Assembly (NCBI RefSeq): GCF_030345795.1
Contig: NZ_JAUALB010000001.1
Span: 1,421,001-1,485,000, forward strand
DNA length: 64,000 nucleotides
Source: Micromonospora sp. WMMA1363
GTDB lineage: Bacteria > Actinomycetota > Actinomycetes > Mycobacteriales > Micromonosporaceae
Direction of reading: 5' to 3'
Shown: positions 20,354 through 35,991 of the stretch, piece after piece
How positions within the stretch are numbered: the first letter of the stretch is position 1
Layout of the letters: every line of letters begins with the position of its first letter
Notes under the pieces: generated by a model
The model's input: only the letters and a program-made list of their open reading frames with translations
Told to the model about the DNA's origin: nothing
Databases searched by the model: none
Translations under genes and position numbers: made by a program

Positions 20354-22612
<2,259 letters not shown>

Positions 22613-31563: not shown

Positions 31564-31873
31564 GACGCCACCACTCCCTCCGCGAGTACACAGACAGCTC
31601 CCGCCGCGAGTACACCCAGCCTCTACCCACACCGGCGGTGTCGAAACGGCGTTGATCTGCCGCGCCGGCTACCACCTTCGTCGCCCCCGGTCGCCGGACC
31701 GTGGTTCACGCACGTCGACCGGGAAGCGGCCCGGCCGGCGGACAGCCGCACCCCAGGCGACCTCGCCGCGTCCGACATCGCCCGGCTCCGCGTTGACTCC
31801 GGTTGCCAGAGTGGGTACGGGCATCAGGTGATGTCCGGTGCGGGCGGCACGGACAGCACAAAGGAGCGCGGCC
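31564..31873. other. Divergent intergenic region with an 18-base direct repeat
   Basis: Between the small membrane protein (leftward) and the triple-repeat secreted protein (rightward). It contains CTCCCTCCGCGAGTACAC at 31574-31591 and CTCCCGCCGCGAGTACAC at 31598-31615, identical in 17 of 18 bases and 24 bases apart. No gene seen. Confidence 0.5.
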
Positions 31874-33004
31874 ATGGCAGCAGCAGGAAGAGCCCGCGGC
31901 AGGCGTACGGCTACGGCCACGTTGCTCGCGCTGGTCGTCGGCGCGACGCAGACCGGCCCGGCACCCGCCGCGGCGGCGCCGGCAGGTGTCACCGCCACCG
32001 TCTACTCCTACCTGCCGACCAAGTCCGAGTACCGGGTCGACAGCAGGTACGCGACGGTCTCCACCGGCGGAGGCGTCGTCGTGCGCCGCACCGGCACCGG
32101 GGCGTACACGGTGATCCTGGAGGAGGCGGCGTCGGACGGCGGGGTGGCACACGTGACGGCCTACGGTGACGCTCCGGTGCACTGCACCCTCGCCAGCTGT
32201 CACCGAGCCCCGTTCGGCGGTGCCGACGAGCACCTTCAGGTACGCTGCTTCTCCGCTGGCGGCACCCCGACCGACAGCCGGTTCGTCGCGACCTTCAGCG
32301 ACAGGCGACGCGCCAGCCAGGGCCGGCTGGCGTGGTTCGCCACCGACCAGGCGGCCCCCGCCGGTCCGCGGATTCTGGACAGCGTGCACAGCTACGACTC
32401 CACCGGCGGGTCGATCACGTACGAGCGTTTCGGCACCGGCCACTACACGTTCCAGATGAACGCGAACCCGGCCGGCGAGGACGCCTGGGCGTTCCCGATG
32501 GTGCATGTGACCGCGGTCGCTGGCAGCGCGGTGAACTGCCAGATTGCCTGGCCCGACCGATGGGAGGTGTGGTGCGTCGACGTCAGTGGCACTCCGATCG
32601 ACGCTCGTTTCGCGCTCAGCTACGGTAAGCGGGTCGACCTGCTCGGCCACGCCACCGGCGTGCGCTTCGCCACCGGCACCCTCTACGGCGAGGAGGCTAC
32701 CGGTGGAGAACTACACGGCGACAGCTACAACTCGACCCGGTCCGGCTCCGGCGCACGACGGATTCTGCTCGACACCGGTCGTTACGAGATCCAGTTCGTC
32801 GATGTCGGAACCACGTACGGCACCCCCTTCGGCAACGCCCACGTCGGGAACAAGTGGGGCAGTGTCCCGCGTGGCCACTGTGTGGTGCGCCACTGGCGGT
32901 CGACCGGGTTGGACGCGGTGGTCCAGCTCAACTGCTACGCCTGGGGTGGGAAACCGGCCGACCTCAACGCTCGGGTGTCGTACACCACCTGGCCGGCGGG
33001 CTGA
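31874..33004 (+). CDS. Secreted protein of three tandem beta-rich repeats
   Basis: 376 residues; ATG 31874 follows GGAG by 7 bases. A signal peptide (about residues 1-38, ending PAAAAPAG) precedes three units of about 110 residues. Each has a strand around SYxST..GxGxxxxRRxxTGxYxxxxE, a central HV-type strand followed by a Cys-containing strand (PVHCTLASC, AVNCQIAWP, GHCVVRHWR), a second Cys (VRCFSAGGTPTDSRF, VWCVDVSGTPIDARF, LNCYAWGGKPADLNA) and a final xxARVSY-type strand. The paired Cys in each unit probably form a disulphide. I do not recognise a named family; a surface or matrix-binding role is a guess. Confidence 0.75.
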   Translation: MAAAGRARGRRTATATLLALVVGATQTGPAPAAAAPAGVTATVYSYLPTKSEYRVDSRYATVSTGGGVVVRRTGTGAYTVILEEAASDGGVAHVTAYGDAPVHCTLASCHRAPFGGADEHLQVRCFSAGGTPTDSRFVATFSDRRRASQGRLAWFATDQAAPAGPRILDSVHSYDSTGGSITYERFGTGHYTFQMNANPAGEDAWAFPMVHVTAVAGSAVNCQIAWPDRWEVWCVDVSGTPIDARFALSYGKRVDLLGHATGVRFATGTLYGEEATGGELHGDSYNSTRSGSGARRILLDTGRYEIQFVDVGTTYGTPFGNAHVGNKWGSVPRGHCVVRHWRSTGLDAVVQLNCYAWGGKPADLNARVSYTTWPAG

Positions 33005-33209
33005 ACCGGAAGCCCGCCGACCCCGGTCGAGGGGCGCCCCGCAGGACGGCGCGTCCACCCGTGGTGCGACGTTCCCGGGCGTGGGTCCCGGTGGGCACAG
33101 GCTGAAGGTCCCGGGTCGGGCGGGGGATTCGGCCCTGCTGCGGGTGCCGGTGAACGGCGACGATGAAACGGTCATCGGGCAGTTCTCCGCACTCCTACAG
33201 GAGCGATCA

Positions 33210-33848
33210 ATGAAGCGCCGGACGTTGGATCTGCTGTTCAGCCTCGGCGGGCTGGGCCTCGCGGTCCTCTTGCTCGTCGTGGGTATCGTCCTTACGTCGA
33301 ACGCCAACTTCGCCAACACCTACGTGCACGACCAGCTCGCCGCACAGCACATCAGTTTCAAGCCGGCCGACAAGCTGAGCGACGAGGAGAAGAAGTCGGA
33401 GTGCCTGCGCGAGTACGCCGGCGTGCCGTTGACCACCGGTAAGCAGGCCGAATGTTACGCCAACGACTTCATCGGGCTGCACCTGAAGTCGATCGGTGAC
33501 GGCAAGACGTACGCCGACCTCGGCGAGCCGCAGAGCCAGCTGAGGGCCCAGGTGGCTGAGGCCGAGAAGAACGACGCGGCCAACCTGGCCGACCTACAGC
33601 AGCAACTCGCCGAGGTCAGCGGCCAGCGGGACACCGTGTTCAAGGGTGAGACGCTGCGCGGTGTGCTGCTCACCTCGTACGGCTTCAGCGAGTTCGGCCG
33701 CAAGGCGGAGCAGGCAGCCCTGGCCATGTACATCGGCGCGGCGCTGCTGTTCCTGCTGTCGGTCGCTGGTCTGGTCCACGCGTTCCGCACCCCGAGCAGC
33801 GAGGCGTTCGCCACGCCGGAGCCGGCCAGGAAGCCCGTCACCACCTGA
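33210..33848 (+). CDS. Two-helix membrane protein of unknown function
   Basis: 212 residues with ATG 33210 after CAGGAG. Transmembrane helices at about 8-30 (LLFSLGGLGLAVLLLVVGIV) and 170-190 (AALAMYIGAALLFLLSVAGL) flank a charged extracytoplasmic region of about 135 residues with a coiled-coil-like stretch (RAQVAEAEKNDAANLADLQQ) and two Cys. A similar layout occurs in conserved actinobacterial membrane proteins without assigned function. A hairpin follows the stop. Confidence 0.75.
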   Translation: MKRRTLDLLFSLGGLGLAVLLLVVGIVLTSNANFANTYVHDQLAAQHISFKPADKLSDEEKKSECLREYAGVPLTTGKQAECYANDFIGLHLKSIGDGKTYADLGEPQSQLRAQVAEAEKNDAANLADLQQQLAEVSGQRDTVFKGETLRGVLLTSYGFSEFGRKAEQAALAMYIGAALLFLLSVAGLVHAFRTPSSEAFATPEPARKPVTT

Positions 33849-33913: not shown

Positions 33914-34313
33914 TGACGGCCCAGCGGCACCAACCGCCCGGAGCCTCGGCGACCTGGAACGACGGTGGACGATGCGGCCCGCTCGCCGTGGTCGAGCGTC
34001 GCCGTCTGCTTTCGGCGCCGCGAATGCGACGATCCGGTTCTCGGGCGGCATCGGTCGCAACCTCGACCCAGTTCGGGCCGAACTAGCAAAATAGGCCCGA
34101 AAGGCTACTTTTCCTCGCGTTTGCGGCCACGTGTCCGGCTGCGGCGGCACGCTGGTCACGGCAGCCGCCGAACCCGCGCCGGCCGGGTGGGTGGCTGTGG
34201 CCGTGGCTGAACGCCACCCACGCCGAGGTCGCTCCCGGTAGGTCGCACGACGGCCAGGGCGACCTCGCTGCCACGACAACAAACCCGATTACCAAGACTG
34301 GAGACTGCACGTC
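33914..34313. other. Leader region of the ferritin-like protein gene
   Basis: No gene seen. An AT-richer patch near 34080-34115 (AACTAGCAAAATAGGC and onward) is the best candidate promoter area, about 200 bases before the ATG; I cannot assign boxes. Confidence 0.4.
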
Positions 34314-35762
34314 ATGTACACCCGACACGCTCTATGGGGAAGATCCGCCCTGGTGGGGGTGGCCGCTCTCGCCGCCCTCGGCCTGTCCGCTCCGGCCGCT
34401 CTCGCCGGACTACCGACGGCCGCTCAGCCGTACCCGGCCGCGTCCGAACTGTGCCCGGTGGGCATCGCCCAATGCTCGCCGTACCCCGCCCTGTTCGACA
34501 CCAGCGCGAACGGGGCGTACAACGCCGGGTCGGTGGACGACCTGTTGAACGGCGCGGCCGTCACCCAGGCCAACGCCCACTGGCAGTACAACCTGTACGC
34601 CGAGGCGGCGGACTTCAAGGGCCTCACCAACCTGGCCAACGTCTGGCGGTCTGTCGCCGACGTCGAGTACTGGGACCACTACAAGTCCGAGATCATGATG
34701 TCGGAGATCTACAGCAACCAGGACAACCTGTACAACCTGCGGGTGGCGATCACCCAGGCCGTGCAGGCCAAGCAGGCGTACCTGGCCTGGGCGGCCGAGG
34801 CGCCGGACCGCAAGTCGTACGAGACGCTGCGTGGCCTCGCCAAGTGGCAGGCCGAGGCCGCTGCCCTGCTCACGCAGGCGGAGCGCAGCCTGGCGGAGGG
34901 CATGGGCAAGGTGCCCTACGCCCCGCCCGTCAAGGACGTCCCGCTCAAGGTCACGCCGGGGCCGAACTACAGCGAGCCGTTCTACACCACGCTGACGGGC
35001 GCCTCCGACTCGGCGCTGGGCGTGGCGGCCTGGCAGTGGGGGCAGTACGAGACCATCGCCGAGGTCGCCGTCTCCACGGGTGAGGCGAAACTGGGCGCGC
35101 TGCTGGCCGGACTCGGAAATCAGGAGGTGCAGAACTACCGCAAGGTCTCCAACCTCGCCGGATTCGTCAACGGTCCCAAGATGAACCTTGAGTTCTCGAT
35201 CGTGTCGGAGCAGGGTGCGATCGACTACTACACGGCCGCGATCACCAGGGCAACCCAGCTGGGTGACCCGGCAGCGGCCAGCCTCTTCCTCGACATCAAG
35301 ACGGACGAGCAAGGGCACAAGATGACCTTCGAGATCGAACTCGCGCGCCTGATGGGCAAGGACCACAAGGGCAAGGACCACAAGCGCGACAAGCACGAGG
35401 ACCACAAGGGCGACAAGCACGAGGACCACAAGCGCGTGTACGGCGGCCTACGCGAGGATGCCGGCCTGCGCGCGGACGGCATCCTGCGCGAGGACAGCGG
35501 CCTGCGCGCGGACGCCTTGGACGGCCTTGGTTTCGACAACTTCGTCGGGACCGGGACCGCACGCACTGACGGCTTCTCCAGCGGTGCGGACGGCCTCCTC
35601 GGGCGACTTCTTCCTCACTTGTTCGACAAGCGCGAGGACCACAAGGTCCAAGACCCCGCCGTCCACGAACTCATCGAGGACTTCACGGCCAAGGGTGGCA
35701 AGCACGAGGGCCACAAGGTCGAGGAGTACAGCGGCAAGAAGGCCTGGTCCCCGGTCGAGTGA
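34314..35762 (+). CDS. Secreted ferritin-like (rubrerythrin-type) protein with Lys/His/Asp-rich tail
   Basis: 482 residues with a signal peptide (MYTRHALWGRSALVGVAALA). The body holds two helix pairs with di-iron-like spacing: first LYAEAADF and, about 25 residues on, VEYWDHYKSE (about 97-125); second VSEQGAIDYYTAA and DEQGHKMTFEIE (about 296-340). The E..E-x-x-H pattern in each half is the ferritin-like signature. The last 130 residues are unusual: a KDHKGKDHKRDKHEDHKGDK run (about 350-372), then alternating LRED/LRAD units, a hydrophobic linker, and further EDHK and KHEGHK motifs. The tail may bind metal or polyanions. ATG 34314 has no strong ribosome binding site (GGAGACTGCACGTC). Confidence 0.7.
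   Translation: MYTRHALWGRSALVGVAALAALGLSAPAALAGLPTAAQPYPAASELCPVGIAQCSPYPALFDTSANGAYNAGSVDDLLNGAAVTQANAHWQYNLYAEAADFKGLTNLANVWRSVADVEYWDHYKSEIMMSEIYSNQDNLYNLRVAITQAVQAKQAYLAWAAEAPDRKSYETLRGLAKWQAEAAALLTQAERSLAEGMGKVPYAPPVKDVPLKVTPGPNYSEPFYTTLTGASDSALGVAAWQWGQYETIAEVAVSTGEAKLGALLAGLGNQEVQNYRKVSNLAGFVNGPKMNLEFSIVSEQGAIDYYTAAITRATQLGDPAAASLFLDIKTDEQGHKMTFEIELARLMGKDHKGKDHKRDKHEDHKGDKHEDHKRVYGGLREDAGLRADGILREDSGLRADALDGLGFDNFVGTGTARTDGFSSGADGLLGRLLPHLFDKREDHKVQDPAVHELIEDFTAKGGKHEGHKVEEYSGKKAWSPVE
35353..35433 (+). repeat. Tandem KDHK/KHEDHK codon repeats in the ferritin-like gene
   Basis: Degenerate repeats of AAGGACCACAAG and GACAAGCACGAGGACCACAA encode Lys-Asp-His-Lys and Lys-His-Glu-Asp-His-Lys. 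The two longest copies (starting 35389 and 35413) are identical for 20 bases at a 24-base period. This indicates growth by repeat duplication. Confidence 0.7.
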
Positions 35763-35792
35763 CGCACCGGGAGGGCGCATGCCCTGACTAGA

Positions 35793-35834
35793 CGGGTGGC
35801 GAAGAGGTGCCGCAACTGGCCTCCTCGCCACCCG
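35793..35834 (+). terminator. Hairpin after the ferritin-like gene
   Basis: CGGGTGGCGAAGAGG (35793-35807) pairs with CCTCCTCGCCACCCG (35820-35834), 14 of 15 positions, loop 12. It lies 30 bases beyond the stop. Confidence 0.7.
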
Positions 35835-35991
35835 CGTGTTCCCGGTGTGCGAGGAACCGGACGGCACCGCGTTCGCCTGGACCGGTCGCCGTTTGGGGCC
35901 GCCGGTTCTCACCACCAGGTTCGACCTACTCCAGCTCGCCCGGCCCCCGTCTGTGCGAATGGAGTCGCGTGGCGGCCACGTTCGGTCGTGA

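Follow-up and report, generated by a model that had tools for sequence, protein, structure and literature searches.

An open reading frame in the genome of Micromonospora sp. WMMA1363 raises the question of what a probably exported protein with a ferritin-like core would do with a long, repeat-built tail of charged residues. The frame lies in a 64,000-nucleotide stretch of contig NZ_JAUALB010000001.1 (positions 1,421,001 to 1,485,000), hereafter called the window. An earlier note, made from the letters of the window, had read its product as an exported protein with a di-iron core in a single bundle.

The gene, its product and its relatives

The gene and its putative export signal were placed as follows:

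34314..35762, + strand: whole open reading frame, 482 aa, ATG start, PF02915 match
34314..34406, + strand: signal-peptide-like N-terminus, residues 1-31, ending in AALA (by inspection; low pLDDT)

The frame is intact, with no internal stop, and its GC3 is 0.91 overall, 0.94 in the core and 0.90 in the tail. The long helices of the core span residues 74-352, and the tail comprises residues 348-482 (135 aa). The ferritin-like fold suggested in the earlier note was supported as a rubrerythrin fold: the protein scored 28.6 bits against PF02915 (Rubrerythrin, Pfam), above the cut-off of 22.8 bits, and its predicted model superposes on rubrerythrins. The best Pfam stretch was the last helix pair, residues 291-360. 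All 37 sequences of family alignment A6 matched both PF02915 and the NCBIfam rubrerythrin model at E 0.001 or better, and the window protein itself scored far under the curated NCBIfam cut-offs (25.3 of 340 bits for nigerythrin, 19.2 of 200 bits for rubrerythrin).

Based on the hydrophobic, signal-like N-terminal segment, which was read by inspection, and on Cys47 and Cys54, which are common to all five tailed sequences, the protein is probably exported, in agreement with the earlier note. These are its only cysteines and both lie ahead of the bundle; the C-terminal rubredoxin FeS4 domain of classical two-domain rubrerythrins is absent, with no cysteine after the bundle.

A protein profile search returned 19 relatives, which together with the genome copies gave 23 aligned rows. 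Close relatives are counted out of 23 in this alignment and out of 22 in A6, where P0004 (a shorter form of the L008 protein) was left out and the genomic form L010 stands in for P0002. A6 also holds 15 distant tandem rows (L004, L005, L011-L013, L041, L043, L045, L047-L053). A tail was present in five of the 23 rows, namely the window protein, a paralog in the same genome, G251, G549 and P0001, and the remaining 18 chains stop no more than about 10 residues past the last helix. In a tree read without support values, the five tailed sequences group together as a single clade with a long stem. The paralog has 541 aa, with a core 94-95% identical to that of the window copy.

Close cores were found in four of 354 genomes searched: the window genome (two copies), G549, G251 (P0002 is its protein, here complete at the start) and G646, whose close core lacks a tail. 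Distant matches occurred in 16 further genomes of this set. Wider profile searches covered the order, family, phylum and class; the best 5 candidates per genome were scored, and distant relatives may be undercounted. Order-wide, matches at E up to 0.001 were present in at least 29 of 397 genomes and were mostly short, to the last helix pair. Phylum-wide, the close profile at E up to 1e-15 matched only the window's own genome among 396. Class-wide, the two-site profile matched at least 51 of 394 genomes, most matches covering one repeat only, and full-length tandem matches were obtained in at least seven genomes besides the window's own, one with an internal stop. Of the seven full-length loci, L069-L075, four were read (L069, L070, L072, L075); L071 was set aside, and L073 and L074 were removed by a filter.

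The 15 distant A6 rows and the four loci read class-wide share with the window protein a signal-like N-terminus (by inspection) and two fused repeats. They differ from it in that most of the 15 rows keep the ligands of both metal sites, and neither group has a His/Lys repeat tail. The exceptions among the 15 were L051, in which Lys replaces the D2 Glu and Asp the B1 Glu, and L041 and L045, with a shifted C2 motif.

Fold of the core

An AlphaFold2 model of the window protein, built with 37 aligned sequences, contains eight long helices with pLDDT values of 94-99 in 10-residue blocks. Alignment and model together divide the core as follows:

34533..34703, + strand: repeat 1 helices A1 (74-101) and B1 (105-130), residues 74-130, with Q85, H89, E118, D121 and H122; front half of the surviving metal site
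34725..34895, + strand: repeat 1 helices C1 (138-161) and D1 (166-194), residues 138-194, metal ligands lost
35013..35159, + strand: repeat 2 helices A2 (234-254) and B2 (258-282), residues 234-282, without the helix-A Glu and the helix-B His; E271 retained
35175..35369, + strand: repeat 2 helices C2 (288-315) and D2 (319-352), residues 288-352, with E299, E332 and H335; back half of the surviving metal site

The rubrerythrin four-helix bundle is present in the predicted core. The single bundle of the earlier note was ruled out by the eight long helices, two repeats per chain, of the model, and it gives way to two fused repeats with probably swapped packing.

Structural comparisons, for which alignment ranges denote the first and last residue only, bear on this packing. 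Rubrerythrin and nigerythrin structures (1ryt, 1b71, 1yuz) superposed over both repeats with 127-131 residues at 1.1-2.0 Å; for example, 1b71 aligned 127 residues at 1.1 Å spanning model residues 72-349, and nigerythrin 1yuz aligned 130 residues at 1.2 Å spanning 64-347. About 130 residues were hence aligned within a span of about 280, and a contiguous bundle would stop near residue 194. The rubrerythrin chains 1ryt and 1b71 are unswapped. Their unswapped state is implied by PMC3317640. Sulerythrin chains, described as subunits of a swapped dimer in PMC3317640 and PMC12833474, matched about one repeat of the window model over 125-130 columns, gaps included; chain 7o8a_A gave 130 columns at 1.5 Å and the other listed chains 2.8-3.2 Å. 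The Foldseek E-values were weak, the best being 0.08 for the window model and 0.0011 for a second model, that of the distant tandem relative L004 (333 aa, mean pLDDT 89.8). In one search with the L004 model, a contiguous alignment of 1ryt gave 140 columns at 14.2 Å versus 132 columns at 1.8 Å for sulerythrin 1j30_B. In another comparison, across both repeats, 1ryt aligned 133 residues at 1.3 Å.

From the ends, lengths and rmsd of these alignments we infer that A1 and B1 pack with C2 and D2, as in domain-swapped sulerythrin dimers; the predicted model of L004 suggests the same swapped packing. Shorter B-C loops go with domain swapping, according to PMC3317640, and the B-C loops of the window model, with 7 and 5 residues, fit this rule.

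As described in PMC3317640 and PMC12833474, sulerythrin and ferriperoxin share with the window protein a four-helix rubrerythrin-like repeat, a short B-C loop, the lack of a rubredoxin domain and the packing of A and B with the partner's C and D, which for the window protein is a reading of predicted models. Both are dimers built from chains of one domain each and have two di-metal sites (PMC12833474). The window protein departs from this one-repeat-per-chain type: its model has eight long helices, both repeats sit in a single, probably exported chain, one of the two sites is gone and the other altered, and a repeat tail has been added. With rubrerythrin and nigerythrin it shares PF02915 and the superposition over both repeats, and it differs from them by the missing rubredoxin domain, the altered ligands and the two repeats per chain.

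A profile joining A1B1 to C2D2 (8 sequences) matched solved rubrerythrins in one stretch, positions 4-123 of 129, with E 2.6e-9 and 40.5 bits. The profile in natural order (23 sequences) gave 36.5 bits to the same best match, as two half-bundle stretches, and matched P. furiosus rubrerythrin with repeat 1 alone, in one stretch, 41-163, at E about 3e-6. The joined probe was better by just 4 bits on the best match; it indicates which parts best keep the ancestral sequence, and the topology itself rests on the structural comparison.

Metal-site ligands

Six residues, E118, D121 and H122 in B1, E299 in C2, and E332 and H335 in D2, were invariant in 23 of 23 close relatives. At the aligned C1 position, 148, all 22 close rows of A6 have Gln or Leu; the D1 His is gone in all 22, the A2 Glu position is always taken by Ala238, and the B2 His has given way to other residues. 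Kept and lost ligands sort into A1B1C2D2 and C1D1A2B2, that is, into the two bundles of a swapped dimer, a pattern that independently fits the packing suggested by the models. The site of the C1D1A2B2 bundle is lost in all 22 close relatives. Two residues do not sort so neatly: all 23 rows keep E271 in B2 although the site of its bundle is lost, and 15 of 22 retain E179 in D1.

The earlier note had derived its di-iron core from two E-x(~25)-ExxH helix pairs. One ExxH is present, E332-H335 (EQGH), and the other is E118-x3-H122 (EYWDH); the ligand spacing is 33 residues in both pairs (85 to 118 and 299 to 332), residue 85 is Gln, and the two pairs lie in different rubrerythrin repeats. The di-metal sites of sulerythrin and ferriperoxin have four Glu and two His with a fifth Glu nearby, according to PMC12833474. 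In the window protein E299, E332 and H335 of this set are present, helix A carries Gln85 at the Glu position, and helix B reads E118-x2-D121-H122 instead of the usual E-x2-H, so that the standard di-iron core of the earlier note was not supported. Position 85 is Glu in 17 of the 22 close rows and Gln in the five tailed ones, and position 89 is His in the five tailed rows and Tyr in the other 18 of 23. The helix-B pattern E-x2-[D/E]-H was also found in the two-site tandem relatives.

The register of helix B depends on the reference. The 33-residue spacing equals that between the ligands of rubrerythrin and, in rubrerythrin numbering, puts D121 in the register of His56 and H122 one later; an alignment to bacterioferritin, with gaps around helix B, differs and puts residue 119 on the His. 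The extra Glu of rubrerythrins presumably sits three residues past the helix-C Glu, which here is Ala302, and this position is Ala in 22 of 22 close rows, leaving no fifth Glu over the di-iron centre. With one site lost and the other altered, a canonical di-iron site in the tailed clade is doubtful.

The repeat-built tail

The tail and its repeats were placed as follows:

35355..35759, + strand: tail, residues 348-482, 135 aa, rich in Lys, His, Asp and Glu; pLDDT below 50 from residue 366 on
35354..35436, + strand: tandem repeats of 15 and 24 bp, coding for GKDHK / KHEDHK units (tandem DNA repeat analysis)
35432..35516, + strand: 18/36-bp tandem repeats encoding alternating LRED/LRAD units (tandem DNA repeat analysis)

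The motifs KDHK, KHEDHK and KHEGHK and the alternating LRED/LRAD units named in the earlier note are present, and its proposal that the tail grew by duplication was borne out by the tandem DNA repeats of 15 bp (2.1 copies, 100%), 24 bp (2.6 copies, 94%) and 18/36 bp (4.7/2.3 copies). Each of these lengths is a multiple of three, and growth through in-frame duplication is supported. The repeat pattern KxEDxxKxED, with up to 3 mismatches, had 25 matches in the genome, all 25 inside the two gene copies.

The combined count of His and Lys reached 18 in the richest 100 tail residues; the maximum among 35 other likely genes of the window (out of 41 listed, short ones omitted) was 12. His alone reached 8 in the richest 100-residue stretch, which is not above two of the 35 compared genes; by this measure the excess in the window tail is one of Lys. 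Residues 374-436 hold the LRED/LRAD units followed by GLLGRLLPHLF and have a Leu/Ala/Gly character unlike the His/Lys units. This stretch is not His-rich and has no counterpart in the paralog tail; the hydrophobic fraction is 0.26 here versus 0.02 in the paralog.

The earlier note had expected a conserved core with variable tails, and this is what the family displays. The paralog tail has 192 aa of GKEHKGEDGHK, KYDGHKYEDGK and KHEDGK units with 25 His and rests on DNA repeats of 15, 33 and 45 bp. The tails in related genomes are shorter, with 50 aa and 7 His in G251 and 31 aa and 2 His in G549, and farther relatives have none. Tail units differ among copies; the long tails nevertheless keep their H/K/D/E make-up. 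An E-[YFL]-S-G motif near the tail end in four of the five tailed sequences (G251 being the exception) suggests that the tail expanded between the core and the C-terminal end.

Dps proteins with charged tails combine a ferritin-like core with a charged disordered tail, and DNA-binding Dps tails are net positive, Lys/Arg-rich and cytoplasmic. The window protein resembles them in having such a core and tail. It differs in net tail charge: -5 for the window protein and -14 for its paralog, with +3 and +1 for the short tails of 50 and 31 aa. For the long tails, the nucleic-acid or polyphosphate binding raised in the earlier note was dropped on these values, and their net negative charge favours binding of cations rather than phosphate. 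The best reading of the tail is a putative metal-binding segment. Unstructured segments with His and acidic residues do occur in exported metal proteins: ZepA, a cyanobacterial exoprotein in zinc uptake, has such an N-terminus (PMC10957091). Against the metal-tail reading stand the Leu/Ala/Gly stretch of the window tail, the 31-aa tail with just 2 His and the net positive charge of both short tails.

Flanking regions, mobility and selection

Two flanking features were conserved among tailed loci:

34096..34123, + strand: upstream element CCCGAAAGG..ACTTTTCCTCGCGTTTG, about 190-220 bp ahead of the start codon, conserved in 4 tailed loci
35791..35838, + strand: downstream hairpin, terminator-like, conserved, predicted

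The upstream element (CCCGAAAGG..CTTTYCTTCGCGTTT; CCCGAAAGG(C/T)T(A)CTTT..TTCG.GTTT) is common to the window, L002, L039 and L010, four loci that share no neighbouring DNA. It holds a partial CGAAAG/CTTTCG inverted repeat and is a possible promoter or operator. The downstream hairpin was predicted in 4 of 4 loci at -23.4 to -34.7 kcal/mol.

By blastn, DNA similarity between loci reaches no farther than about 285 bp ahead of the gene and about 80 bp beyond it, and none of the 10 locus pairs displayed similarity beyond the gene and its immediate flanks within 8 kb. A transposase gene pair directly adjoins the paralog (L055, 5793-7213, - strand; rve domain and a sub-threshold HTH_Tnp_1 match) and is, we presume, of IS3 type. 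Flank-limited similarity and the transposase pair together point to a gene that is mobile as a unit. A plasmid gene was rejected, as the core was unmatched in 72,556 plasmid records. A phage gene was likewise rejected: viral contigs, searched with two peptide patterns that could reach close relatives only, gave 58 fitting stretches, none encoding a relative.

In four of four loci read (L004, L005, L006, L013), the two-site tandem gene lies between a small GTPase gene and a uroporphyrinogen-III synthase-like gene, a stable location unlike those of the tailed copies. We take the GTPase neighbour (MDFA.YDP..) to be of conservon type and the other to resemble uroporphyrinogen-III synthase. Around the tailed gene, no metal-transport genes were recognised among the selected neighbours scanned, which counts against a metal-binding role, and selected neighbours (10 window proteins; 9 from other loci plus 1 from the window) revealed no functional link. 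A haem peroxidase (PF00141, 751 aa), presumably KatG-like by its size, is encoded at 20354-22609 on the - strand of the window. Two upstream frames on the + strand, 31838-33004 and 33126-33848, had no Pfam family at E 0.001; the product of the former looks exported and that of the latter has hydrophobic segments at both ends.

In the core, G251 gave a dN/dS of 0.24-0.28 against the other tailed copies; the ratio was 0.53-0.57 for G549 versus the two window-genome copies, 0.44-0.86 in comparisons with G646, and 0.76 between the window copy and its paralog (9.7 synonymous and 23.3 non-synonymous changes). Purifying selection is clear only from the G251 comparisons, and the value of 0.76 also fits relaxed selection.

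Proposed role and alternatives

The architecture of fused repeats and tail is well supported by computation, which also shows the DNA repeats, the ligand pattern and the tail family; export, the identity of the metal and a buffering role we infer only. By a narrow preference we read the whole as a fused domain-swapped rubrerythrin turned into an exported metal-binding protein, with one lost site, one altered site and a metal-binding tail. The probably secreted single chain would be a pseudo-dimer version of the domain-swapped rubrerythrin dimer. The A1B1 and C2D2 bundle would keep most metal ligands, and the bundle of C1, D1, A2 and B2, its site lost, would serve as scaffold. The surviving altered site probably binds metal in a modified way and not as a standard di-iron peroxidase. 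Along the flexible tail, His, Lys, Asp and Glu would be exposed at short, even intervals, and this rapidly lengthening disordered segment would most likely bind divalent or ferric metal ions outside the cell with high capacity and lower affinity, buffering them or holding them at the surface. A more far-reaching version, which we find possible and rather doubtful, is a repurposed ferritin-like protein. It would first have lost one site and later altered the other as a fast-evolving tail was gained, metal handling thereby passing from the buried di-iron centre to an exposed brush with an extracellular buffering or mineral-nucleating role. Among the literature matches listed, there was no description of exported fused rubrerythrins or of such an extracellular metal-buffering kind.

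The protein could instead still function outside the cell as a rubrerythrin-type peroxidase or ferroxidase, its tail being a neutral, slippage-grown extension or a wall anchor, which we consider unlikely. Such an enzyme would account for the six site residues invariant in 23 of 23 relatives, the score above the PF02915 cut-off, Glu85 in 17 of 22 close relatives and a core dN/dS of 0.24-0.28 in the G251 comparisons, where purifying selection acts. It sits poorly with Gln85 in all five tailed sequences, the E-x2-D-H of helix B and Ala302 in place of the extra Glu in 22 of 22, and a neutral tail sits poorly with the H/K/D/E make-up that the long tails hold despite differing units. The same six residues would be unneeded by a pure scaffold and so count against a structural or surface protein, in which the bundle would be a scaffold and the charged disordered tail would tether it to cell-wall polymers or a spore coat, perhaps via bridging cations. 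This we judge quite improbable, even with one site lost and one altered, a long polyampholyte tail of low predicted order, and a tail length that changes fast (31, 50, 135 and 192 aa).

Decay of the window copy into a duplicate of little function appears very improbable. The dN/dS of 0.76 against the paralog, the more irregular tail of the window copy and the transposase gene pair adjoining the paralog point that way, but the frame is intact without a stop, the six conserved site residues and both cysteines are kept, and so are the upstream element and the downstream hairpin.

On the favoured reading of an exported metal-binding protein, the family would offer a series of forms: the swapped dimer of single chains, the fused protein with two sites, the fused protein with one site, and the fused protein with an altered site and a tail of metal-binding type. 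With such a series, the loss of a catalytic metal site and its replacement by a disordered binding tail becomes testable, and the rubrerythrin fold would be placed outside the cell in actinomycetes.
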